From Dromiciops gliroides (taxonomy: Eukaryota; Chordata; Mammalia; Microbiotheria; Microbiotheriidae), in assembly GCF_019393635.1 (NCBI RefSeq), contig NC_057866.1, positions 3,436,223 to 3,500,222 of the forward strand: DNA of 64,000 nucleotides, in the 5' to 3' direction. Position numbers and translations under genes: made by a program. The notes beneath the pieces were generated by a model. It made no database searches, was not told the origin of the DNA, and worked only from the letters and a program-made list of their open reading frames with translations. Shown here piece by piece: positions 11,504 to 60,418 of this stretch (positions are counted from its first letter, which is position 1; the number at the start of each line of letters is the position of its first letter).

Positions 11504-12430
11504 GCTCTTTCCTGTCTCTCAAGATGGCGGACCAAACCCCCTCAAAGGAGCTAAAGGAAAAAAAGGTCAAAAAAGAAAAAAAGGAAAGAAGCCCAAAAAG
11601 GAAGATGCTGCTGAGAAGGTGGTGAAAAAAGCCTCGAAGGCATTGCAGCCGCAACCCGGCCCTGGCCAGAGGGATCAGCAGATACTCAAGGTCTGCCATG
11701 TATTCCAGGTGGGCCAAGCACAAACGCAAGTACACTGCACCCAAAACCTGGATTGAAAGGAAAAAGAAAGAGAAGGTACCTGCTACCATCTCAAAGCCAG
11801 TTGGTGGGGATAAGAATGGAGGAAACCGAGTGGTAAAGATCCGCAAAATGCCTCGGTATTACCCTACCGAGGATGTGCCTAGAAAGCTGCTCAGTCATAG
11901 CAAAAAGCCCTTCAGCCAGCACGTGAGGAGACTCCGATCTAGCATCACCCCAGTCACAGTTCTGATCATGCTCACTGGCCGCCACAGGGGCAAGCGAGGG
12001 GTTTTCCTGAAAGCCACTGGCTAGTGGCTTACTACTGGTGGACTGGGACCTCTGTCCATCAACCGTGTTCCTCTGCGAAGAACCATCAGAAATTTGTCAT
12101 TGCCACTTCTACCAAGGTTAACCTTTCAGGTGTGAAAATTCCAAATCATCTTACCGATGCTTACTTCAAGAAGAAGAGGCTCTGTAAACCTAGACACCAA
12201 GAAGGAGAGATTTTGGACACAGAAAAAGAAAAATATGAGATTACAGAGCAGCGCAAGGCTGACCAGAAAGCAGTGGACTCTCAGATCCTGCCCCAAATCA
12301 AGAAGATTCCTCAGCTCCATGGCTACCTGCGCTCTGTATTCTCTCTCTCCAATGGAGTCTATCCTCACAAACTGGTGTTTTAAATGCCTGGCAGAGAACT
12401 CTTATTAAAATATTTGAAATTAAAAAAAAA
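11504..12430 (+). pseudogene. RPL6: Processed pseudogene of ribosomal protein L6
   Basis: Intronless copy of the RPL6 mRNA with a remnant of the 5' UTR, the ATG at 11524, the coding region to a stop at 12381-12383, a short 3' UTR with ATTAAA and a poly(A) tail. Recognisable RPL6 blocks include [38 protein letters not shown] and YPHKLVF. Frame is lost early (Lys-rich N-part) and again after FLKATG at about 12020, and several residues differ from the known protein. A 14-base target-site duplication (AAGAAGTCCTAACC, 11490-11503 and 12431-12444) flanks it, showing L1-mediated retroposition. Confidence 0.95.
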
Positions 12431-23024: not shown

Positions 23025-23885
23025 TAAAAAGTTTTAACAGTTGGTTTAGATAAATTGTCTGCTAGACACAGGAGCCTCTAAATCAGTATTAGTAAGCAAA
23101 CCAGATGCTGGGTGTAGACCTGTAGGATTGTTTGAATGTAGTGGGATTCTCAGGAAGAGCCCAGAGAGTGCCCAAAATTGAATCCCTCGCATGGTAATCT
23201 TATGGGGGCCCTTAACAAGTTTAGAACATTCATTTTTCCTCATGCCTGATGCCCCTGTAAATTTATTAGGTCATGATCTCCTTTGCACAGCTTAGAGCAA
23301 CCTATCTTGTGCCTCCAGATGGGGCATGGCTGTCTCCATACCATTGCCAGAGGTGGATACTGTTCATCTATTACCAATTTACTTACAGAAGCTCAAGGAA
23401 CAGTAGGGGAAGTATCCAAATTCCCTCTGACATTCCTGAGTTTTTATGGGCCTCATCCCCTAATGAGGTGGGGCTCCTTAAGTCTGCCATGCCTGTTACC
23501 TTTAAAGTTAAGGGGGGACCACCCCCCTCCATTCCACAGTATCCCTTGTCTAGGGAAGCAATAGAAGGGATCATACCTATAATTGAGGCTTTGAAAAGCC
23601 AGGGTATTATTATTCCATGTCATCACTCTCATGCAATACTCCCATTTTGCCAGTTAAAAACCCAAGCCTGGGCCAGATGGTAAATCTGTTTATTGTTTTG
23701 TGCAAGATCTTAGAGCGATTAATAATTATGTTATTCCTGTCCTTCTAATCAACATCCCCTTGTGACTACCATACAATAAAAGCTCTAACTAGAAAAGCAG
23801 AAGCTTCTTCCATTTACTAGTCTGGGAGATAAATTAAGGAAAGGTTAAGTAGGGGAGATTTATGATCTAATATCCAATTTTAATC
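23025..23885 (+). mobile_element. Retroviral protease/RT-start fossil inside an L1
   Basis: About 0.85 kb of retroviral pol remnant: a protease active-site segment (LLDTGAS type), a following LGxDLL-like segment, and the beginning of reverse transcriptase. Most like class I (gamma-like) viruses. No LTR borders it; L1 ORF1 sequence resumes on both sides. It is broken at several points. Confidence 0.7.
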
Positions 23886-38429: not shown

Positions 38430-38849
38430 TCCCTCAATTTCCTGCTTCTAATTCCAATGATGGCTAGCAGCATTATAATAATACATTAAACATATCGCAT
38501 ACTCTCTACTAGCTATTATTATTTTAGCTTCATTGGCTCAGCACGGCTGGTTCCTCAGCATGATTTACGGTGTCTTGTGGCATTTCCTGAACGCCTGGAA
38601 ATGGGAACATGGGATAAGATATGTGAGCCCAGGCCCGCTCAGGGCTTGTCCCCTGGCGGCCCTCTGGTTCGCTGGGCCACAGCCTCTCAGGAGGCTTATC
38701 ACATTTCATGCCCCGCGTGACCACACTTAGGTTTGGCCTGCACTCCCCCAAGATCGCTCCACTCCACAACTCAATGTGTGCACACAGCGGCGCTGCCCAC
38801 CTAAGAATAACGAGGTTAACTCGTTCTAGACAGAGTTTGGAGAGCTGCT

Positions 38850-39460
38850 CGGCTTCCGCCCCCGCCCCCGGATCCCGCCCCCCGGATCCCCGCCCCCCGG
38901 ATCCCCGCCCCCCCGGAATCCCCCGCCCCCCCCCCCGGATCCCCGCCCCCCCGGATCCCCAGCCCCCCCCCCCCCGGATCCCCGCCCCCCCCGGATCCCC
39001 CGCCCCCCCGGATCCCCGCCCCCCGGATCCCCCCGCCCCCCCGGATCCCCGCCCCCCCGGATCCCCGCCCCCCCGGATCCCCCGCCCCCCGGATCCCCGC
39101 CCCCCCCGCGATCCCCGCCCCCCCGGATCCCCCGCCCCCCCGGATCCCCGCCCCCGGATCCGCCCCCCCGGATCCCCGCCCCCCGGATCCCCCGCCCCCC
39201 GGATCCCGCCCCCCGGAATCCCCGCTCCCCCCCGGATCCCCGCCCCCCGGATTCCCCGCCCCCCGGATCCCCGCCCCCCGGATCCCCGCCCCCCCCCCGG
39301 CTCCCCGGAATCCCGCCCCCCCCGGATCCCCCCGCCCCCCCCCGGCTCCCCGGCTCCCCGCCCCCCCGGGATCCCCGCCCCCCCGGCCCCCCCCCGGCCC
39401 CCCGCCCCCCCGGCCTCCCCGGCTCCCCGGCCCCCCCGGCTCCCGCTCCGCTGGCCAATG
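38850..39460. repeat. C/G-rich minisatellite (unit CCCCCGGATCCCCGC)
   Basis: About 40 imperfect copies of a 13-17 base unit built from C5-8, GGATC(C) and CCCCGC. Near the right end the GGATCC core is replaced by GGCTCC. On the minus strand each unit is a G-run, so the array can form many G-quadruplexes. All frames are open because the unit lacks stops; the Pro- or Gly-rich frames are not genes. Confidence 0.9.
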
Positions 39461-40552
39461 CACTGCTCGGTGGGCTTGTAGTTCTAAGGCCCAGGTTACA
39501 ACCTCTCCAGCCTAAGAGGCTCGGGAGAGGTCTCACTTATCTGGCGGCACTTCGCACGAGCAGTTAAAGCGGCCAGGGTTTCCAAGCCTGCCCCTCAGTC
39601 ACTTGCTCCCTCGGGGTTTGGAGGGATCTGGGATGGGGGGGCGGGGCGGGGGGCCCCCAGGCCAGACCACCTGATCAGGTGGAGGGCTTGAGCTCCAGAG
39701 GGCAGTGTGGTCAGGACTGAAAGGGAGTGGTGGGAACATGCCCCCCCCTGAACCATGGCACCCCAAAGCGCCGGTCGGTTGGGAGGCTCAAGAAGTCCCC
39801 CCCATCCCCAGCCAAGACCCATTCGGGTCCCCCCCCAGCGGTCGGGTCTTGTCTTTTACCACCCCCCCCCCCCCCCCCCCCCCCCCCCGCGTCGGGTCTC
39901 CCGTATTCCTCCCCACTTCCCGCTACTTGCAGGCGTAAGCGGAGGACTCTCTCCCCGCTCTTCCTGTGCAGTCAGGCAGGTCGGTGTGTGCCCCCCTCAA
40001 ACTGGGGCTTCACCAGCGCCGGCCCCGGGCCCCACCCCACGACCCAAGGCCGCTTGGGCGCTGCTAGCCATCAGCCCGAAGAAGGGGGGGCGGCCGGAGA
40101 TTCTAGCAGTAGCCGGCAGTGGGGACTGGCGGGGCTTCAGACACCCCCCGCCCCGCGCACACCCACACCCACACTCACACACACTGGAGACGGCCCGGGT
40201 CGGACCCGGGCTGTCCTCCCTGAAGGTAGTAGACCGAAGCCCCGCAGCTGGGTAAGCGAAGCAGACGGACACTCACACACATACACACGAGTGGGGGGGG
40301 GGGGGAAGGAAGGGGAGGAGGAACCTCCGTCGGACCCGAACCATTCCCCAGAGGGCAGTAAGCGGCCCGCAAGCAGGACTCCGCCCGCCCCCCCCCCCCC
40401 CCGCAATCTCTGGGCAGTTGGGGGAGGGGGCGAGGGGTAGCCTCAGTAGGGTCCCTTCGGGGTCACTAGCTGCCGAACCTGGGAATTTTTCTACGGACCG
40501 AGACCCCGGGAAGGCTCTACCCAAGCCGGGCCGGAGGACCGGGCATACTCAC

Positions 40553-40690
40553 TTGCGCCCTGGCCGAGGCCAGGTTCAAAGCCAGGGTCAAGGCCCAAAT
40601 CAAGGCTCCATACCGATGCTGCCGCTTTCTCGGGCTCGGTCCTCCCGGACCCCGGGACGGCTCTCTCCAAAGACAGTACAACATTGCTGT
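40553..40690 (-). CDS. Signal-peptide first exon in CpG island (possible TNFR-like exon 1)
   Basis: On the minus strand an ATG at 40684 opens 44 codons ending at donor CAA|gtgagt (phase 0). The product has a long basic n-region (PSPRKRQHRYG) followed by a hydrophobic core and a small-residue site (ALIWALTLALNLASARAQ), a typical cleavable signal peptide. TRAIL receptors have the same design of exon 1. A TATA box lies 31-36 bases upstream, which leaves a very short 5' UTR. The link to the receptor exons 30 kb away is inference: an intermediate exon that starts in phase 0 and ends in phase 1 is required and was not found. Confidence 0.5.
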
Positions 40691-40714
40691 GCGCGTGGGT
40701 CGCCGGCAGCAGAA

Positions 40715-40720
40715 TTTATA
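40715..40720 (-). promoter_or_regulatory. TATA box
   Basis: TATAAA on the minus strand, directly above the signal-peptide ATG at 40684 and inside a CpG-rich block; the GC-rich surroundings make the AT-rich hexamer stand out. Confidence 0.45.
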
Positions 40721-41798
40721 CTGGGGGGGCGGAGCCTGAGGCGGGGGAGGAGCCGGAGCCGGAGCCGGGACGGAGGCGAGGCGAGGCGGGGGCGGGGCCT
40801 GAGCCCAGCGCCCAGGCACAGCCCACTTTCCCATGGCAGCCCACGCCTCCGGGGCCCAAGTGGACCCCCGCCGACCCTGGACGCACCTTTCCAACCCAGG
40901 AGAGCAACCCGGGTGGGGGAAGGGCAGCTCCCGGCCAGGGAGGGAGAACGCGGAAAGATTTAAAGCTCGTCCAGGTAAGTCACATCGCTCCAGGTTAAGT
41001 CGCTCCTCCGAAAGGCTGCAGAAAAGCCCCCGAGAGATACCGGAACGCCACTCCTCCGTTTGCAGGGGGGAGCATTGAGGCCGGAGGCGGATGAGGAGGG
41101 CGGGGAGAAGGCTCACTGTGGGCAGCCGGGGTCCAGGCGAGCCCGGGGGCTCCGGCGGCCAGTCCAACCCTTGTCCCAGTCGATCCTCCTCAGAACACTC
41201 GAGCTGGACTGGGCCGAACAGGAGAGAGGCACCGCCCTCATCCCTTCCCAGAACGTGCCACCCAATGGTCCCTAGCGTGGGGTTTGTTGCCCTCCAAGGG
41301 GAGGAGGGTGGCGGCGGCGGGCAGAGCCCGAGCAGGGCCTACAGACAGACACCCCGCTTCCGTGTGCTTCTTGGACACTTTCCGCCTCTGCCCAGGGCTC
41401 TCTGCACCCCCTGGTTTGCTCCCAGGGCCAGGAACAAGAGACTGAAGTCGTTTCCCCCAGGTAGCCCTTCCTTCATATATTGGAGGTCAACTTTCTCTCT
41501 GGTGGGAAGGAGAAAAGAAAGGAAATGGAAAGGAAGGGGAGGGGAAAGGAAAAAAGAAAGGAAAAGGAGACAGATCTCTTGGCTCGGCATCTTCCTTTTC
41601 CTTCAGCTGAGCCTTCTCACCAGGATCTATCCTCTCCATTTCCTCCAAGTTAATATTATAAACATTTTCATTTTAGGGAACTGATTTACTTTTGGAAGTA
41701 ATCCTTTTTTGTTCTTTATGAATTGCAATGTTTATATTTATTGTTGATAAGACATATTTTTTTGATGGAGGATTTATTTTTTTTTTAAGTAATAAACA

Positions 41799-50408: not shown

Positions 50409-50585
50409 TTAGTGCTCCAAGCTGCTTGCCCCACCGTCTCCTGCTTCCCTGGCTCTGGAGCTCCCCACGCTCACATCTGCCAGGATGCAGGTTCTACAGC
50501 GGATGAGCGTTTTCTGATACACGTATCCATGTTTCCTCCTCACGCACAAGTCATGGGCCCATACCTGACATTTGTCACACTGTAT
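50409..50585 (-). CDS. Integrase/PHD gene, last exon: PHD finger C-part
   Basis: Acceptor tgtgcccccag, 58 codons and a stop. It begins IQCDKCQVWAHDLCV and reaches CRTC about 15 residues later, giving the remaining six ligands; with exon g all eight ligands of a C4HC3 PHD finger are present at normal spacing. A 25-residue tail follows. No poly(A) signal is seen in the next 500 bases downstream; the first AATAAA on this strand is in the tail of an L1 fragment near 49.90 kb. Confidence 0.87.
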   Translation of the reverse strand: MQCDKCQVWAHDLCVRRKHGYVYQKTLIRCRTCILADVSVGSSRAREAGDGGASSLEH

Positions 50586-53500
50586 CTGGGGGCACAAACA
50601 CACAGTGGCTGAGCCCCCACACCTCCCAGGCAGCCAGAGTCAGCTGAGCTCAAGGCAGGTTGTGTGCCCTGCCCTGTGCTCTGGGACTGCAGGATCCCTC
50701 CACCCCAGGGGCCAGAACCAGTGCCCGTCTGCTGTGCTTCCGAGCCTCCTGCTGTTTGGTGGTCTGCTCCCTCCGCCCAGAAGGCTGGACATGGCTAGCT
50801 CCAGAGCAGTTAGAATCCCAGGGGCCAAGCTCCTGTGGGTGAAAGGGTCTACTCACCACAGCGAACACATCACTGTCCCCCTCGTCAGGAAGCCTGTTAC
50901 AATAGAAACATGTGTCCCTGCTTTGGGCTTTTACCAGGGACTCCCTCTCGCCATCTGCAGAGCCCCCTGGGGCTTCTGGGGCACAGATGGATGGGGGCCA
51001 GTTTTCAGCAGGAGCAGAGGCTTCTTGCAGCTTGACCTTCAGACTACTCAAGTCCTCTTCCTCCACCTCCTCTTGCTCCTCTTCCACCTCCTCTTGTTCC
51101 TCTACCTCCTCCTCCTCTACCTCCTCCTCCTAGAGATGGAGAAGTGAAGAAAGCTGAGCATCAGGTGTGATTCCTCCAGAAACGCCTGCACTCGGGCCGT
51201 GCCCTGCAGCCTCCTTCCACGACACCTGTGCCCAGCCCACGGCGTTCTGCGGTAACGGGGTAGTTACTACCCCTGCTATACAGCTGGTCACCCTCACTCG
51301 AGTCCTCTTTTCCCCAGATGTTGTTCAACAGTCTTTCAGTCATGTCTGACTCTTTGTGACCCCACTTGGGGTTCTCTTGGCAAAGATCCTGGAGGGGTTT
51401 GCCATTTCTTTCTCCAGCTCATTTTGCAGATGGGGAAACAGAGGCAAACAGGGTGAAGTGACTTGCCCAGGGTCACACAGCTAGTAATTGTCTGGGAAGA
51501 ATATGATAAATGAATGGGTTAGTAGGAGATCCACAGCAGATGTGATGGGCCCAGAACTGAGCCAGAGTGATCCAGGAACATTTGTGAAGAGACCTCCAGA
51601 TCTGACTAATTCTTCCCCTACTCCCAAGCACCACGCTCACACCCCCCACAACCTGTGAACCTCTCTTCCCTCCCATGCTCATTGCTCATTGACTGAGCTA
51701 TAATTCCTGTGTCTACAGAAGCTAGGGGGGCTAAGCAAAACCTCTACAAGGCAGGGCAGAGTGGGGGGGGTGGGTGGGGCAGGGCAGGGAGGACTTGCCA
51801 GCCAAGGCACTTACACAGCCTGGGTATCTGTTCGGGAGAAAAAAAACCTTATGTAAATGTTGGTCCCAGTCAGCTGGGTTGGCCGTCAGCACCAGGGAAA
51901 GAAGCCTGAAATGAAAGGGGGTGGTTTGGGATGGACGGATGGATGGATACACAAACATGGAGTAGACCAAGTCTTGCCTACAGCCATGTCTTTCTTTCTT
52001 TCTTTCTTTTTTTTGGTCGGGGCAGTTGGGGTTAAGTGATTTGCCCAGGGTCACACAACTAGTAAGTGTCAAGTGTCTGAGGCTGACTTTGAACTCAGGT
52101 CCTCCTGAATCCAAGGCTGGTTCTTTATCCAGTGCGCCACCTCACTGCCCCAAGCTATGTCTTCTTTTTTTTTTGGTGAGGCAATGAGGGTTAAGTGACT
52201 TGCCCAGGGTCACACAGCTAGTAAGTGTCAAGTGTCTGAGCCCAGATCTGAACTCAGGTCCTCCTTCAGGAATCCAGGGCTGGTGCTCTATCCACTGTGC
52301 CACCTAGCTGCCCCAAGCTCTATCTTCTTAATGCAGGATCTCATTAATCCAAGACCTGACAGGGAGGACAGCCAGGCTCCTTTGGATGTGGGCGCCCACC
52401 AGAGCCCACGTGGGCAGCTGACCCACCCTCTGGGGACTCGCCAGGATCCAAGGACAAGGGGATGGGGACACGAAGCTCAGGAACCAAACACACAGGCCAC
52501 TGTGCTCTCCCAGGCTGTCCCCACACCTGGCAGAAGAGGGGCTCATTCCCAACCCCAAGCTCACCTCCTCACGAAGGACGTGGAATTTTCTAGGAAGCAG
52601 TCTGTTTGAGGGTTGTATTGAACAACCAAGTTACGCTGTATTTTCAAAGCCATTTTCAAAATTGTATTTAGCTGAAAGGATAAGACCAAATAAGTAAATT
52701 AATCAGAAGTGAGAGGCAATGTTAGCTATGGACACACTGGAATTTGAGGCCTAAGCTTCAGCCAGTGAGAGGCAGTAGCCAATCTGGTGGGAGCAGGGGG
52801 CAGCACTCCCCCAATGGGAAATTTCAAGGCACCAACCCTAGACCCAAAAGAATCTCATCTCTTGGATACCTTGATGATGGAGAGCCCATTACCTTACACA
52901 CAAAACGGCCCACTGTCCTGTTAGGATATTTGCCAGTGTTAGCTATCTATATTCTTGTGAGCAGTGTTAACCCATCCACCTCATCTTTCAGTCCCTAGGA
53001 GTTCTGGGACTCCACAAGGGCAGGTAGCCACTCACTGGAAGGAAGCTTTCAGAAGGAAAAAAATACAAGCTCTCCAAAGCCACATTAAAAACAAAGAAAC
53101 AAACAAACCCCTAACAACACCCAAAACATCAGATTGGCCAAGAGGATGACAAAAAATGAAAAAGGAAATTGTTGGAGAGGACTTAAGGAACACTGGTACA
53201 TGGTTGGTGGAGTTGTGCCTATGGTGTAGCCATTTGGGAAAGCAATTTGGAACTATGTCCTCAGCTGCTAAACGGTGCATCCTGTCAATCCAATGATGCC
53301 TGTACCTCCAAAGAAAACAGGGACAAAAGGAGAGGAGACCTGTGTTTACAAAAGAAGCATCTTTTCATGGTGGGCAAGAACTGGAAATTCAAGGGGATGC
53401 CCATCCATTGGGAAGGGGTGCAACTGGGATGTTATTCCCCAGACTAACAAAAGGGATCATTTCAGAGGAAGCTGGGAAGACCTGAATGAAGTGAGAATCA

Positions 53501-56500
53501 AAAGGGAATGGAAACGTGGCGGCTGAGCTCAGGTTAAATGCAGTGACAGATCCATCCCTCTAAGGACAGATGGCAACAGAGAGGTGGACGCCAACAGCCA
53601 TGTATCCACATCCAACAGGAAGTGGCCATGGGGTGGGGGTGGGGAGCTAGCTGTACTTTACTGGCTTTTCTTTCTTGCAGAGGAGGACTCATGGGGTGGA
53701 CAAGAGGTGTTCTGTTAAACAAGTATTCACGTAGAAATAAGTGGTATTAAAAAAAAAGCTTAAAGAAATTAGAAAAAAAAAGAAATTTAAGCTTAAAGCT
53801 TAAAGAAACACTTTGTTCAGTTCCTGGACCCGAGTTCCAATCAGAGCTGCACCCCTAACTAGATGGCCTCTGACATAGGACTTTAGGTTAAAGCTAGAAG
53901 CGCCAAAGCTCTGAGGTCACGCAATCAAACTCCCTCATTTAAGAGATGAGGAACATGAGGCCCTGGGCCACTCGAGGCCACACAGGTAGGTGTAGATCTC
54001 TCTAGTCCACACTCTCCCCTGTGCTGTCTGCCTCAGTTCTTCTCTGTAAAACCAGGGCTTAGGTGAGAGGGAGGAGCTCTATGCTCCAACTCTGGAGCCC
54101 AGGAAATCGCTGCTGACCTCCAGTTCTGACGCCACTTCTGCCTTTTGAGCCCTTTCTCACATCCTCCCCTTCCCCTGGGATGCCATCCCCAGGCTTCTGG
54201 GGCCTTTGGCGCCCAGCAGGTCATATGCTGCCCTTTCAGTGAGGCCGGGCCGACCACCCAAGTGGTGTCTGTGTGACAAAGCCTCCTCAAGCACAACACA
54301 CACACTGACCACTCTTCACTGCCTCCCTCATGTTATGCATCTGGGTCCCATCAAGCTTTCCCTGCCACTAGGGGCGCCACAGTCCCACTGCACCAGGTGG
54401 ACAAGCTGCAGTTGGCTTCAGTTTCCTCACCTGTAGAATGAGGACAATAAGTAGCCCCCCTCCTGGGACTGTTGTAAGGCTCCAAGGAGCCACTCTGTAA
54501 AGCGCTCAGCCCCTAGTAGGTGCTTTATCATTATCATCGTTTCACACTTCACTCCCTGCTACCATTCCTGCCAACTCGTCCTTCTGTGCTCACACCGCAT
54601 CCTGCCTGTGCGCCCAGGGTCCTCTCCTTCCTCAGCCTCTTGGAACCCTGGCTGTTTGAGGAGCCGCCCGGGCCCCCCATCCTGGCAGCCCTTGGGGGTC
54701 TGTCCAGGTCCCTGTGGCCCGTGCCCTCTAGTGCCTCCTGACTCACCCACTCTGTCTTGCTCTCATTTCCCACTTCCCTGGTAACCTTCCTGGGGTGGGG
54801 CCCTTCTACACTTCTTCCTCAGACCCGAGCAACGCCCTGCCTGCCACGCGCCGTTGTGTTGGGGCCGGCGAGGGGGTGTCTTCAGCTGTGGATGAGCAGA
54901 GAGCATCTCCCTCCCTACCTGGTGGAGGAAGCTGTGCTGCTGAGTGCTGATGATCCCTTCCGGTAAGCCGAACCTCTTCACCAGTTTAAGGATCTGTGCG
55001 CCGGTCTCCTGGGGGGAGCAGGTCTGCATAGGGGCTGCATGGACTGACTGGGTGAAGTAGTCGACAGCCACAAAGGCAAAGCGGGCTCCCGTGGCCGTCA
55101 GCTCCAGGGGCCCAAAGAGATGCAGGCTGGCGAAGCTGAAGAGCCCTTTCTCCTAGGGAGCGGGAGGGAAGCCCAGGCTCTGGCTGCCTGCCGAGGTCAC
55201 GAGCACCAGGGAAAAGCTCAGGAGCTGCCCAGGCAGGCACAGCAATGGAGGCCCATGGGAGCCCTGCGGGGAGGGGAGGTAGGAAGCCTGGGCACACACA
55301 ACGGGGAGTGAATGGAAAAGTCTCTGCGCACAAGGAAGGAGGGCTGGGGGCAGTGGGCAACTCCGGGCCCTCCCTCATCTGAACTGGCCAAAAGGAGGGA
55401 AGATGACACCTGCTCGTGGCTGGGGCCTGAAGCAGATGTCATTCAGCAGGGAAACTGGAGGGGGGTGGGGGGGCACTGAGGGGCCAGCCCCAAGCTAAAC
55501 ACACTCTTTCCAGAGTGATGGGCACCCCCCCCCAATTCCAAAGGCCTCATGATGAAGCAAGCCACCTGCATGGCAACCATTGCTTGAGGCAGGGACAGCT
55601 CCTGGGCATGCAACAGTACCTGGGGTACCAAGGACTGAAGGCCGGTCCTGCTCTCTTCCTTAAGGCCTCCCAGTGAGCTGGCTTCCTTCAAATGGAGTGG
55701 AACAAAGGAAGTGACTGAAGCCAGGCTGAGAAAGGGATCGAGAGCCACCGGCCTCCCCCCAAGCCCTGGCGCTGCCCCCTCTCCACCCTGTGCCCCCAAG
55801 TGCCGGGTCGGGTACGCATGCTCCCGACACATCCAATCCCAGACCCGGGGAGGGAAGCCTATCTGCACCCCCCCAGGGAGGCCCCCTTGGGCTCACTGTC
55901 TCCCTGCACTCACCAGGGCAACCTGTGCTGCCATCCGTATGTGTTTGTCTTCACATTTCTTACACTTCTTGATCTGGGGGTTGTGAGAGCACAAAGCTTC
56001 CGAGTCAGGCCAGGAGGAGGAAGGGGGCTGGCTCTCTCCAGCCAAGGGCCTCCTCCCCCAGGCCTCTTGGGCATTTCTCATTGACATGGCAAGGACTTGT
56101 GGGAGACTAGGAAAGGTCACAGCAGTATCTGAGAGTAACCGACAAGGAGCTTGGCCCACAGCAACGCTCCCTAGCATAGACACATGCTCCCCATTGTAGA
56201 GATGGGCAGACCGAGGCTCCTAGAACTTCATGGACTCGCCCAAGGTCACATACCCAGGAAGGGTTTAGAGTCAAACTGCAGGTCCCAGCCCGAGTGGTTG
56301 CTCTCTGTGCAGCGACCTCCCCCCCACCCACATCCCAACCAGGGCACAAGCTCTGCCCAGAGCCTCTGAGCTGCCAGGGCTCTCTGCATGCAGCAGCGTA
56401 GGGCTGGGGTTGCTAAGTCTCCCTAACCAGCTTTATTCCTGAGAAAAAGCTAAGCTGGATGAACTCTCCAGAGGGAGGAGGGAGGCTCCAAAGGTGAGCC

Positions 56501-59500
56501 TTCAGAAACACCCACGAGCTTGTGGCCTTGGAGATGGAAGACCCAGCTCTGGCCCCCCCATCACCTGAGTGACCTTGGGCCCCCTTCCATGTCCGGAGCT
56601 CCAGCTTTCTCTCTGGCTCTATGATCTAAGCTCCTGTGAGCATTCAGGATTAAACTAGTCACCAAAGACACACCCCTGGACTTACGAGGGGAAGCCAGGA
56701 AGATGTGAGCGGCCAGGCTAAGATCAGAGGATCCTACTTAGAGGCGACGTGAACCTGAGAGGCCACTGAATCCAGAGCCCCTCCTTTCTTACAGGTGAGG
56801 AAGTCGTGGCTGAGAGACACGGTCACCCGGGGTCACCCAGGCAGGATCGGCCGCTGTGTCCAGAGCTCCATCCACTGTGCCACCCAGCCTTCCTTCCCCA
56901 CACCGCTTGAAGGAAGGCTGTTGTTTCCATGATTGCTCATACCCGTTTCTGGACATCAGTGGCCATCTCCGGCCAGTAGTATTTCCTCCTGAGATTGGCA
57001 TGGGTAGTTCGTGAACCATAGTGCCTGCGTTTCACAACATGGGCCTCCCAAAAGGCCTTTTTCTTCTCCCCCTCGGTGAAGAGACACTTCTGATTTCGAT
57101 CTTTGCTCTGGCGATAAAGGATGCCATCTTGGGGAAGAAAAAGAAACAGGGTGTGTGATTGGCCCATGGCTCCTCCTCCTTCCTCTCCTAACCAGCCCAC
57201 GTGGCAGTGCCCAGCTGGGTTCCGTGCCCTTCCCCTTCCTGCATTTAGGCTCTGTCCTTGGTCCTCATCTCCCCTGACTTCTTTGGGCATCGATCATCAG
57301 CTCCATCCCTGTGCAGTCAAAACACTGTCTAGGCGCCATGTTCCCAGAGCTGTGTTGGGTCCTGGGCAGCCCAAGAGAAAGCCCCCGCCTTGAAGTGAAT
57401 TCTGTTTGACCGAGGAGAAACTGTGGGAACCTGGGAGCAAGAAGATACCGAGGGGTTTTGTCTCCTCTCCACGGGGAAGGAGGGCCCACAGAGGTATAGG
57501 GCACATTTGTGGCAGACAGTTGGGGAAGCAGGAGATGCCTCCTGCAAAAGATGGTGCCATGCATCCACTACCCCCAGGCGGTAGTGAGGGACAGCCCAGC
57601 CAGAGGCACCAGTCCCAGATGGGGCCTCCTCAGTCTGGGCCTGTGTCAGGCTGGGGAGGGATTTGTATAAATGGAAGCTGATGGTCACTGAGTAGGGTCA
57701 GCCCCCCCACCATGTGGGAAAGGCCTGGATAGATGGATCTAGCAGCGTCTACAATTAAACCCAGGAGTTTCATCTTTCTGGCTTTCTCAAGGGAAGGTAG
57801 GATGGTGAGAAAACAGATCTTTGCTCACAAATAAAAATAAAAATTTTAACAAGTGCAATTGTTTTAAAAGCATGAAAGGCAATGAGATAAGGAGGATCTA
57901 AAAGAGGGAGCCCAGGCCAGAGCCTGCAGTTGGACTGTGTTAAGAGCTAAAATTCTAGCTAAACTGTCTAAAATATCTAGTGAGTGGTCGCCAATAAATT
58001 ATAAGCTTTAGCAAGAGTTAGACTTTTAAGCATTTATTAAGGAGAATGAGAATTTGGTAAAGAGAGAAAGGCCTAGATTCCTGTCTATTAAAGGGAGAGC
58101 ACATTTCTAGCTCCGCTCTCCACCAGAGTCCCAAGGAAAGAGCCCCAGACCGAGCGCCAGTCTCTTCCTTCCTCCTCCCACTAGCCGACGTCACTTCCTG
58201 ATGCCAAAGAAAAGACTCCTGGTCTTGCCCTCAAAGACCTTCACTTCATGGGCAGAACTCTTCTACAGTAAGTCTCCAGCAGGGGGCGTCATTCCAATCA
58301 TTCCGGGGAAAGAATGGTTAGGGAAACCAAGGGGTGAGGGGACGGAGAAGCACCCAGTGTCCCAGCAGAAGATGGGCTGAGAAGGGCAAGCTGAGAAAGC
58401 CCCTCAGGTCTGGTGATGAAGAGATGAGCCGAAAAGGCACCAGGGAGTACTCCCTGACCCCGGGCAGAGCTCTGGGGACATCAAGGCAGCCAGGTGACTG
58501 CTGAATCTCCCAGGCAGTGAGAAGTGCCCAGGGGGCTGGGAGGCACTTTCTCTGAAAGCCTGGCTGACATAGGGAGGGCCATGGATAGAAGGGTGAGATG
58601 TGGAGTTTGGGGGAGCCCTGGGTGGGGGTAGGCAGCAGTGATTAGGGAGAGCCTGGTAAAGAGAAAGAGAGAGAAAGGACAAGTGGATAAGCAATGGGGG
58701 GAGGTGCTGGAAATGAGGTCTATGGCACTTGTTGGAGACTGGACTAAAGGATTAAGATAAAGAATGAAAAGAGGAGACAGGAAACTTCTAAAGAATTATT
58801 ATTATTATTATTTGTGGGGCAACGAGGGTTAAGTGACTTGCCCAGAGTCACATAGCTAGTAAGTGTCAAGTGTCTGAGGATGGATTTCAACTCTGGTCCT
58901 CCTGAATCCACTGCTGCCCCCCAAAATGAATGTTGTTCAGTTGTGTCCGTCTCTTCTTGACCCCATTTGGAGCTTTTTGGGCAAAGATACTAGAGTGATT
59001 TGCCATTTCCTTCTCCAGCTCATTTTACAGAGGAAACTGAGGCAAACAGGGTGAAGTGACTTGCCCAGAGTCACACTGCCAGGAAGTGTCTGAGGCCAGA
59101 TTTGAACTAGTGGTAGAGGGCCAGGGAGGCAGGTGAGGACAGAAGAGAGGGACTCCTAGACCTATAATCTCTAAACTCCAAGCCCTTGGCTACTTGTCCT
59201 GCAGACACCTGCAGCTCCAGCCATCCCCAACTGACCTTCCCCCAAACCTGGGCCACTGTTGCTCTCTCTATTCCCAGGTCCAGCATCACTCAACTCCCCA
59301 GGCCTTCTCCCTATGGGATTCCATCAGCTGGCAGCCCTGCATGCCTGCACTGGACTGTGCTTTCCCATCTCTTCTGGAGAGATGTTATTCTACCTTCCCA
59401 GGTGCTCATCACAGCTGTCACCTCTTCCCCAAGGCCCCTCCCCAACCCCCTCCATCACTCTCCCTCTGGTACCCAGCCTTAGGCTATGCGTGCACACACC

Positions 59501-60418
59501 CCATCCCCACTTGGGAAGCAAGGGATCCTGGCTTCGTTTGGCTATGGATCCCTAAGGCCAGGACTTGGCACAAATTAGCAGGTTAACAGTGCCCAGTCAC
59601 TCTAAGGCAAGGAGGAAGGTAGAGGCTACCTGTGAAAACCTTCCTTCGGGCCCAGCCATCAGCTAAACACAACTGGAAGTCTGTAATAGCAGACGTGTGT
59701 GTGTGTGTGGGGGGGTGGGTCCTCTCCAAATCTGGGACTTATCCCTACTCTGAGCTCATGACCCAGGGCACCTGGAGGAGGGGGGAAGAAGGCTGGCTGG
59801 ACAGTGAGTGCCCAACAGAGCCGGGGGCCCCTACCTACCTCCCCAGTCTGACTTCATGCAAGTCAGACTTATCTAGTAGTCTCCGAGACAGGTCCCTTCC
59901 CACCTCCTTATCTTTGCATAGGCCGTGCAGTGCCCAAAACCTGAAATTCATTCCCTCTTCAGAAGCCAAGTGCCCCACCCCCCAAATTAGCAATTTGCAT
60001 TTAATTAGTTAAGTGAATGCAAGTCTCAGGAAGGTAAACACCCTCAGGGCAAGATCTGGAGGAGCCATAACAGGTTTTAGGTAAATTGAATTCAGTGGAA
60101 AGTAAGACTAGTCCTGTGGGGGTGGGGGGTCGTCACCCCTTAGCCAAACTGGGGTAACTTTGCCAAGTCCTTTGGCCATTCAGCCAAGAGATACCCACCT
60201 GTCTGGAAGTAGTTAGCCTTTTTCCATCTCGGTGTTTTCACGGGCAATCCTGTGTCCAGAAGGGTGTCCCCAGCGGCCAGCCCCGAGGCATCCAGACCAG
60301 GGGCAGCTGGGGCCTGGGCAGGCCTTTCAGCTGCCAGGCCCTCCGGCTCCACAGTCTCCACTGCTGGGGCTGTGGCCAAGTACTTGGCCTTCTCCAGGTG
60401 AAGAGGAGACAGAACAAA
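50409..60418 (-). CDS. Domesticated integrase gene with PHD finger (GIN2-like), 8 exons found
   Basis: Eight minus-strand exons (60199-60418, 56943-57127, 55914-55973, 54919-55152, 52565-52671, 51815-51905, 50857-51129, 50409-50585) have AG acceptors and GT donors, and their phases fit without exception, giving 448 codons and a stop. In this partial model (residue 1 = first codon of the 60199-60418 exon) the order is a Pro/Ala-rich N-part (1-73), an integrase-type HHCC zinc finger (about 74-142), an integrase core (about 156-299), a run of Glu (300-325) and a C4HC3 PHD finger (373-423). Known families: Gypsy integrases, Ginger1 DNA transposons (some with PHD fingers) and the vertebrate genes GIN1 and GIN2. 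Preserved frame over 10 kb and introns point to a host gene rather than a recent element. The catalytic acidic positions look partly replaced, so a nuclear, non-enzymatic DNA- or chromatin-binding role is inferred. The start codon and promoter were not found. The GIN2 assignment is by memory of family features, not by search. Confidence 0.82.
50857..51129 (-). CDS. Integrase/PHD gene, exon g: Glu-rich linker and first PHD cysteines
   Basis: 91 codons, phase 0 both sides, acceptor ccatctctag and donor GTG|gtgagt. It opens with about 25 residues that are nearly all Glu, coded by a purine-rich GAG/GAA repeat, passes through a Pro/Ser-rich linker and ends with CFYCNRLPDEGDSDVFAV, the first zinc-ligand pair of a PHD finger. 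The acidic run may vary in length between individuals because it is a coding microsatellite. Confidence 0.85.
51318..51494 (+). mobile_element. MAR1-like SINE
   Basis: CAGTCATGTCTGACTCTTTG, TTGCCATTTCTTTCTCCAGC and GTGACTTGCCCAGGGTCACA in order; intronic in the integrase/PHD gene. Confidence 0.85.
51815..51905 (-). CDS. Integrase/PHD gene, exon f: end of integrase core
   Basis: 91 bases between acceptor tttcatttcag and donor TGT|gtaagt; the first base completes the Arg codon left open by exon e and the exon ends on a codon boundary. It encodes TANPADWDQHLHKVFFLP, matching the HPxDWDExLPxxxFAYR helix that closes the core in Gypsy integrases and GIN1. Confidence 0.83.
52008..52150 (-). mobile_element. 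tRNA-derived SINE
   Basis: Same-strand as the integrase/PHD gene, intronic; the target CTATGTCTT is reused by the next copy. Confidence 0.9.
52166..52314 (-). mobile_element. tRNA-derived SINE
   Basis: Second insertion in the same target (AAGCT(C)TATCTTCTT to its right). Confidence 0.9.
52565..52671 (-). CDS. Integrase/PHD gene, exon e: integrase core, middle
   Basis: Acceptor ttatcctttcag, donor GAG|gtgagc, 107 bases, phase 0 in and 2 out. It encodes a helix (LNTILKMALKIQRNL), then VVQYNPQTDCFLENS, which corresponds to the YHPQTDGxxE segment of Gypsy-type integrases that carries the third catalytic residue (a Glu is present at that place). Confidence 0.85.
53074..53760 (+). mobile_element. 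L1 ORF2 end, old
   Basis: Diverged ORF2 end (TGGTTGGTGGAGTTGTGC, GCAATTTGGAACTATGTCC, GGGATGCCCATCCATTGGG), in the intron between exons d and e of the integrase/PHD gene. Confidence 0.75.
53860..53990 (-). mobile_element. MIR-like SINE, old
   Basis: CTCATTTAAGAGATGAGGAA and GAGGCCACACAGGTAGG, the usual MIR central block. Confidence 0.6.
54412..54545 (+). mobile_element. MIR-like SINE 3' part
   Basis: CAGTTTCCTCACCTGTAGAATGAG through AGTAGGTGCTTTATCATTAT. Confidence 0.7.
54919..55152 (-). CDS. Integrase/PHD gene, exon d: integrase core, first part
   Basis: 78 codons between acceptor ccgctccctag and donor CAG|gtaggg, phase 0 in and out. It reads like the first two-thirds of an RNase H-fold integrase core: a GPL turn (HLFGPLELTATG), the strand FAFVAVDYFTQSVHAAP, helix ETGAQILKLVKRFGLPEGI, then IISTQQHSFLHQ where active integrases have the second acidic motif. 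The fold signature is clear, but the acidic catalytic positions are not all conserved. Confidence 0.87.
55914..55973 (-). CDS. Integrase/PHD gene, exon c: zinc-finger C-half
   Basis: Exactly 20 codons between acceptor tcacaacccccag and donor CTG|gtgagt, phase 0 on both sides. It encodes IKKCKKCEDKHIRMAAQVAL; the CxxC pair completes the HHCC zinc finger started in the preceding exon. Too short to be seen without the neighbouring exons. Confidence 0.82.
56190..56290 (-). mobile_element. MIR-like SINE fragment
   Basis: ACCGAGGCTCCTAGAACTTC, CTCGCCCAAGGTCACATACC. Another such fragment lies at about 56790-56890 (GTCACCCAGGCAGG, CCATCCACTGTGCCACCCAG). Confidence 0.6.
56943..57127 (-). CDS. Integrase/PHD gene, exon b: zinc-finger N-half
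   Basis: Acceptor ttcttccccaag, donor CGG|gtatga, 185 bases, phase 1 in and 0 out. It encodes DGILYRQSKDRNQKC and continues with the His pair of an integrase HHCC finger (HVVKRRHYG) and the hallmark KYYWPEMATDV. The same segment order is seen in Gypsy integrases and in GIN1. Confidence 0.85.
57128..57937. other. Intron sequence, no element recognised
   Basis: Between exon b and exon a of the integrase/PHD gene. Minus-strand frames of up to 119 codons lack splice or family support. Confidence 0.4.
57938..58305 (-). mobile_element. Solo LTR, endogenous retrovirus family A
   Basis: Fossil LTR of about 368 bases, closely similar to the LTR at 28833-29214 (shared blocks include the poly(A)-signal region AATAAATGCTTAAAAGTC on the minus strand). 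No target duplication could be recognised. It lies in an intron of the integrase/PHD gene, in the same orientation as the gene. Confidence 0.82.
58276..58288 (+). promoter_or_regulatory. CTCF-like motif in LTR
   Basis: CCAGCAGGGGGCG, an excellent match to the CTCF core, at the same place in the LTR as the motif at 4278. The homologous position at 28850-28862 (minus strand, CCAGCAGGTGTCG) has one mismatch. Confidence 0.55.
58815..58921 (-). mobile_element. tRNA-derived SINE, shortened
   Basis: (ATT)n tail, head incomplete (ACTGCTGCCCC); next to a MAR1-like SINE. Confidence 0.85.
58930..59110 (+). mobile_element. MAR1-like SINE
   Basis: TGTTCAGTTGTGTCCGTCTC, GATTTGCCATTTCCTTCTCC, AACTGAGGCAAACAGGGTG. 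Confidence 0.88.
59111..60198. other. Intron sequence, no element recognised
   Basis: Unique sequence between exon a and the SINE pair at 58.8-59.1 kb; short (GT)n at 59695-59710. Confidence 0.4.
60199..60418 (-). CDS. Integrase/PHD gene, exon a (most 5' found)
   Basis: The exon starts after an acceptor ending in CTACCCAG and ends at donor CAG|gtgggt. It encodes 73 residues plus one base, with Pro/Ala-rich sequence (AERPAQAPAAPGL) and a basic end (TPRWKKANYFQT). The last base joins the next exon to form an Asp codon. A nearer acceptor (CACCTGGAG) would shorten the exon by nine codons and keep frame, so the 5' edge is uncertain. It has no in-frame ATG; coding must begin in an upstream exon not identified here. 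Confidence 0.7.

Follow-up and report, generated by a model that had tools for sequence, protein, structure and literature searches.

We analysed a 64,000-nucleotide stretch of the Dromiciops gliroides genome (C6:3436223-3500222), hereafter the window; coordinates past 64000 continue its numbering. It contains gene A, which joins an integrase to a PHD finger. This is a real marsupial gene and is larger than first described. Ten coding exons lie on the minus strand, nine of them within the window (Table 1). The coding sequence (CDS) of 1470 nt specifies 489 amino acids, with an HHCC zinc finger, an integrase core, a Glu-rich linker and a PHD finger in that order. An earlier reading of the window from its letters alone (the sequence-only reading) proposed eight exons with canonical splice sites in one frame. 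All eight were found on the minus strand; their introns are GT-AG and a single frame is open throughout. The set was incomplete, as exon 5 had been overlooked and the start exon lies beyond the window. Two boundaries also moved: the CxxC exon ends at 55914, not 55923, and the most 5' exon in the window starts at 60388, not 60418. Exon 5 and the CxxC-exon donor were found by alignment with relatives. The open stretch past exon 6 (54918 downwards) was rejected as coding, since orthologs and a processed copy fit the core exon at 52671-52565 instead. Exon 2 starts at 60391 or 60418 were replaced by the position given by the processed-copy junction.

Exon translations were compared with proteins, a check that the sequence-only reading had proposed. 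Four marsupial proteins align along gene A. The first such search scored 7987 candidates, a list filled by the poly-Glu linker, and returned these four matches plus three weak non-marsupial integrases. A processed pseudogene of gene A is present on the same contig (C6:247645000-247647300), with introns gone and exons joined. It matches the predicted transcript in three pieces at 86.7, 89.7 and 88.6% identity. The match begins 133 nt upstream of the ATG and extends 377 nt past the stop codon, where the stretch examined ends. This retrocopy bears out exon 5, the exon 4 donor and the start exon, and places the exon 2 acceptor. It also links the last core exon directly to the Glu-rich/PHD exon. 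Because four proteins align along gene A and the pseudogene reproduces its exon joins, the exon model is not a product of chance. Judged by this copy, gene A was at some time made into spliced RNA. Since the retrocopy joins exons and untranslated sequence, and retroposition is inherited, we infer that a single spliced mRNA carrying integrase and PHD together once existed in the germline.

Table 1. Positions of gene A exons, its paralogs and a further integrase locus (window numbering unless a contig is named).
Feature	Position	Strand	Content and support
Gene A exon 1 (start exon)	69518-69432	-	Outside window; encodes MSAAETLKHTSSSFMLQSQRGQLPPSNPE; confirmed by processed copy
Gene A exon 2	60199..60388	-	Variable N-terminal region; frame and donor; acceptor from processed-copy junction
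Gene A exon 3	56943..57127	-	First part of HHCC (H2C2) finger; Pfam Integrase_H2C2; joined in processed copy
Gene A exon 4	55914..55973	-	CxxC half of HHCC finger; gtgagt donor; processed copy
Gene A exon 5	55620..55685	-	Variable; homologous to relative P0003 residues 8-29; in processed copy
Gene A exon 6	54919..55152	-	First part of integrase core; retains the first catalytic Asp but not the second (IISTQQHSF)
Gene A exon 7	52565..52671	-	Second part of integrase core; catalytic Glu present in gene A
Gene A exon 8	51815..51905	-	Integrase core end; frame; processed copy
Gene A exon 9	50857..51129	-	Glu-rich linker and first PHD half; frame, processed copy, Pfam
Gene A exon 10	50409..50585	-	Second PHD half, C-terminus, stop codon; frame, processed copy, Pfam
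Paralog B	72390-80525	+	439 aa; HHCC, core, acidic linker, PHD
Gene B CxxC exon	74645-74707	+	Replaces variable exon first taken for CxxC
Paralog C	88578-100799	+	428 aa; HHCC, core, acidic linker, PHD
Exon-split integrase locus	H2C2 C1:9107970-9108113, core C1:9110243-9110470	+	GIN1 or GIN2 candidate; core 41% to C

Gene A is one of three neighbouring genes. Its paralogs B and C both lie beyond the window and are co-oriented, while A is inverted. Loss of the CxxC half of the finger in B was ruled out, as the exon is present. The core1 exon and its flanks are 96.8% identical between B (75346-75686) and C (97273-97613) over 341 bp, whereas the core2 region is only 77.6% identical. Likewise, synonymous divergence (dS) between B and C is 0.06 in core1 but about 1.7-2.2 elsewhere, one short HHCC estimate being saturated. 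Given a near-identical tract with low dS inside otherwise diverged genes, the simplest reading is gene conversion. A genome search with the core of paralog C, in which 150 of 1730 candidates were scored, returned the three cluster genes and stop-bearing places that match across exon borders; the rest of the list was mostly long terminal repeat (LTR)-type integrases in long frames. A processed copy of gene C lies on C3 (L036), with 67.8% identity over C CDS positions 1-827. It has no variable exon, for which the candidate in C is 94924-95064. There is also a third stop-bearing integrase-like copy at C1:302158815-302159069 (+), 57% identical to the C core.

Each of the three genes has relatives in other marsupials. 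In a tree of 12 sequences, support (ultrafast bootstrap, UFBoot/SH-aLRT) was 100/100 for the A group, 92/95 for B and 94/95 for C; only the A group and the split of A from B plus C passed both support marks. The A group comprises sequences from Sarcophilus, Macrotis, Notamacropus and koala. The B group holds Vombatus and Sarcophilus, with Antechinus P0014 assigned by similarity outside the tree, and the C group holds Vombatus, Notamacropus and Sarcophilus. Over aligned proteins, A orthologs are 55-71% identical to gene A.

Gene A has no stops or frameshifts in 1470 nt, while the retrocopy has four in-frame stops and seven frame-changing gaps. These gaps represent six events, as two arose from one repeat insertion. 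The difference in disabling changes is significant (p 0.002). Across 477 comparable codons, the two sequences differ by 39 synonymous and 70 non-synonymous changes (stops included). Comparison with the proteins of four orthologs polarised 45 of the 66 amino-acid differences (stops excluded); 32 fell on the retrocopy against 13 on A (p 0.0066). Within HHCC, core and PHD the imbalance was greater, at 23 versus 5 (p 0.0009). Exon 2 showed the reverse, with six changes on A and four on the retrocopy. The ratio of non-synonymous to synonymous rates (dN/dS) between the pair was 0.44 overall and slightly lower, 0.39, within the domains, about as expected when a gene under constraint is compared with a copy evolving neutrally.

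A three-branch codon model of A, B and C (272 codons) gave a single omega of 0.246 with log-likelihood (lnL) -2469.30, compared with -2521.58 for neutrality. On the A branch omega was 0.211, and fixing it at 1 gave lnL -2491.33, a cost of 22.6 lnL units relative to leaving A free. We conclude that the trio is under purifying selection, with omega about 0.25. Gene A might instead be a pseudogene in decay that has kept an open frame by chance, with B and C functional. The identity of A orthologs to A is modest, the catalytic Glu is lost in the Sarcophilus and Macrotis A sequences, and the koala and wallaby models are short. However, four stops and six events in the neutral copy contrast with none in A, fewer amino-acid changes fall on A, and its zinc ligands are kept. 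We regard decay of gene A as very unlikely.

Pfam matches Integrase_H2C2 to gene A (E 1.7e-9), in line with the HHCC finger described by the sequence-only reading. All four ligands are present in A and are intact in 11 of 11 sequences reaching the region. The PHD match spans the full profile (1-47/47) with all eight zinc ligands. Of 12 sequences that extend this far, 11 have its C4HC3 ligands with W-x-H intact; the koala model is the exception. Relative P0012 carries PF00628 in a precomputed domain list. The Trp of W-x-H is kept in gene A, while the remaining cage residues are not clear. In the core, encoded by exons 6-8, the first catalytic Asp is kept in all 11 sequences that cover the site, and the second is absent in 12 of 12. 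Because this second residue is lost, the integrase is probably catalytically dead. A, B and C all retain the catalytic Glu, which is missing from relatives P0001 and P0002. A profile of ten marsupial proteins matched Ty3 integrase (1.4e-11) and prototype foamy virus (PFV) integrase (1.9e-11). The same profile gave weak matches to the PHDs of EBS, BPTF, MLL and PHF2 (0.007-0.09), several of which are readers of methylated H3K4. Foldseek with the low-confidence P0008 model returned seven matches at E<=0.001, all to PFV integrase with template modelling (TM) scores of 0.15-0.20; PHD matches had E 0.16 or worse.

We consider it reasonably likely that gene A, with two paralogs beside it, has a host function, goes back to a Ginger/Gypsy-type integrase and acts as a chromatin-targeted regulator. 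Gene A would give one spliced mRNA, translated into the 489-residue protein. This protein would no longer cut or join DNA. Its HHCC finger and RNase-H-like core could serve in DNA binding or multimerisation, and the PHD, through its W-x-H Trp, could dock on the histone H3 tail. The product may be a chromatin-targeted DNA-binding or bridging regulator, presumably expressed at least in germline or early embryo. In ZBTB11, passages of PMC5384227 describe an integrase-like finger whose four HHCC ligands are each required for activity and for TP53 repression. A chromatin regulator is favoured because of this HHCC-dependent repression, the intact zinc ligands, the lost Asp and the PHD Trp. The gene A product may read chromatin marks.

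Several observations count against a functional gene A of this kind. Support for its transcript is a genomic processed copy, not RNA sequencing or protein. When the converted core1 exon is left out, A-branch omega is 0.327 and rejection of omega 1 is weak (2 delta lnL 4.56). Divergence from the orthologs is fast, with identities of 22-30% in the N-terminal region and 33-68% in the linker. PHD scores are 16.4 bits for A, 18.6 for B and 19.7 for C, each over the full profile and all below the Pfam gathering score of 24. The integrase-core profile rve was reported for B and C but had no match in A at E<=1. Two structure predictions were of too low quality for interpretation, with a mean predicted local distance difference test (pLDDT) of 47.3 and 43.1. 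The koala A model lacks part of the PHD, including four PHD residues, and the wallaby and koala models lack part of the HHCC finger.

The position of the trio bears on its identity. To the left are segments of the cysteinyl-tRNA-synthetase family (PF01406) and to the right a PH domain (PF00169) and an oxysterol-binding family member (PF01237), all on the minus strand. We take these flanking genes to be CARS1 and OSBPL5, which adjoin on human 11p15. Neighbours were sought with a coding-exon scan that used a human codon table and listed 60 of 66 candidates. Eight segments were submitted to Pfam, which matched two of three CARS-like and three of four OSBP-like segments. OSBPL5 falls within the telomeric part of the KCNQ1 cluster, according to part of PMC2904374. 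Passages on the marsupial KCNQ1 domain in PMC2427030 do not name CARS or OSBPL5.

The sequence-only reading called the gene a domesticated Ginger/Gypsy-type integrase with a PHD in a marsupial, and it is intact, spliced on the evidence of its retrocopy, and under constraint. The link of the trio to Ginger1 rests on published descriptions and architecture. GIN2 is present in marsupials and, as stated in that reading, absent from placentals (passages of PMC3424704), and some Ginger1 elements carry a PHD, as with Ginger1-9_HM of Hydra (Table 1 of PMC2836005). The transposase of that element resembles the trio by description in pairing an integrase with a C-terminal PHD, but it also has a Ulp1 protease, terminal inverted repeats and element activity. 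Given the integrase-like domains and at least this one PHD-bearing family, the trio might be taken for persisting copies of a mobile Ginger1 element and not for host genes. However, intron-rich copies were seen at a single locus and retrocopies elsewhere are intronless. Moreover, the genes form orthologous clades across marsupials and none of 12 sequences keeps the second catalytic Asp. We find the mobile-element explanation scarcely credible.

Identity with GIN1 or GIN2, also raised by the sequence-only reading, was not established. According to passages of PMC3424704, marsupial GIN2 has eight coding exons, lies between OGFOD2 and ABCB9 and lacks the second catalytic Asp. Gene A is at a different place. 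A scan for ABC transporter Walker A or B strings found none in 334 kb, and two bare LSGGQ, although split exons could escape it. The trio might nevertheless be GIN2, as tandem duplicates that in marsupials either relocated to the CARS-OSBP interval or have occupied it all along, having lost GPY/F and with a PHD that went unnoted. Like GIN2, these are intron-rich host genes of marsupials that keep HHCC and have lost the second Asp, and opossum GIN2 is called atypical in this respect in passages of PMC3424704. Unlike GIN2, as compared by description and not sequence, they form a cluster of three between CARS and OSBP types, with ten coding exons in A and a PHD. The text of PMC3424704 has no occurrence of PHD. 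A GPY/F domain is described there for GIN proteins. The motif would follow the core, where the processed copy runs directly into the Glu-rich/PHD exon; a motif scan by string, with no profile, found neither GPY nor GPF in any of the three genes and just a GPL upstream in A. C1 carries a further exon-split integrase locus (Table 1), though this may be GIN1. We hold identity with GIN2 to be possible but rather doubtful. GIN1 resembles the trio as a domesticated Ginger1-type integrase with an HHCC finger in amniotes. It is set apart by description, as it is reported in passages of PMC3424704 to keep the catalytic residues that the trio does not. Bao et al. describe Gin-2 as absent from mammals (passages of PMC2836005). 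Word-limited protein searches gave no non-marsupial GIN2.

We tentatively propose, as a finely balanced reading still open to doubt, that the trio forms a third lineage of domesticated Ginger-type genes in mammals, separate from both GIN1 and GIN2. It would be a three-gene cluster that adjoins the imprinted KCNQ1 cluster where CARS1 and OSBPL5 meet, in which B and C exchange sequence through gene conversion, and kept in marsupials as catalytically dead chromatin readers. Among the matches listed in the open-access literature, none described a marsupial gene that joins an integrase to a PHD. If distinct from GIN2, the trio adds a lineage unreported in the text of the earlier surveys searched. 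To our knowledge, there are few domesticated integrases, most of them without an assigned function. In a trio that joins an inactive integrase to a PHD, and for which a neutral retrocopy of one mRNA serves as a built-in control, it becomes directly testable whether the DNA-binding part of a transposon came to target chromatin. Imagin, a malacostracan gene, is likewise an independent Ginger1 domestication; it is crustacean, and PHD has no occurrence in the portion of its paper's main text consulted. The PHD region of gene C also matches Pfam Znf_SCAND3 at 18.6 bits, below the cut-off of 27. SCAND3 is among integrase (rve)-derived genes (PMC3257199).

Other features were noted around the cluster. 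Between it and the OSBPL5-type gene is a C2H2 zinc-finger frame (L017:4058-4588, +), just below Pfam cut-offs, which we presume to resemble ZNF511. Inspection by eye found RPL6-like intronless frames at window 11626-12380 (+), probably a processed pseudogene. A frame like an LTR-element pol fragment was likewise seen at 23270-23680 (+). The segment at 38500-41700 is GC- and CpG-rich (CpG observed/expected about 0.6), with low-complexity Gly/Pro-type frames. In the left flank, by eye, an intact intronless RPL27-like frame occupies window coordinates -117414 to -117052 (+).

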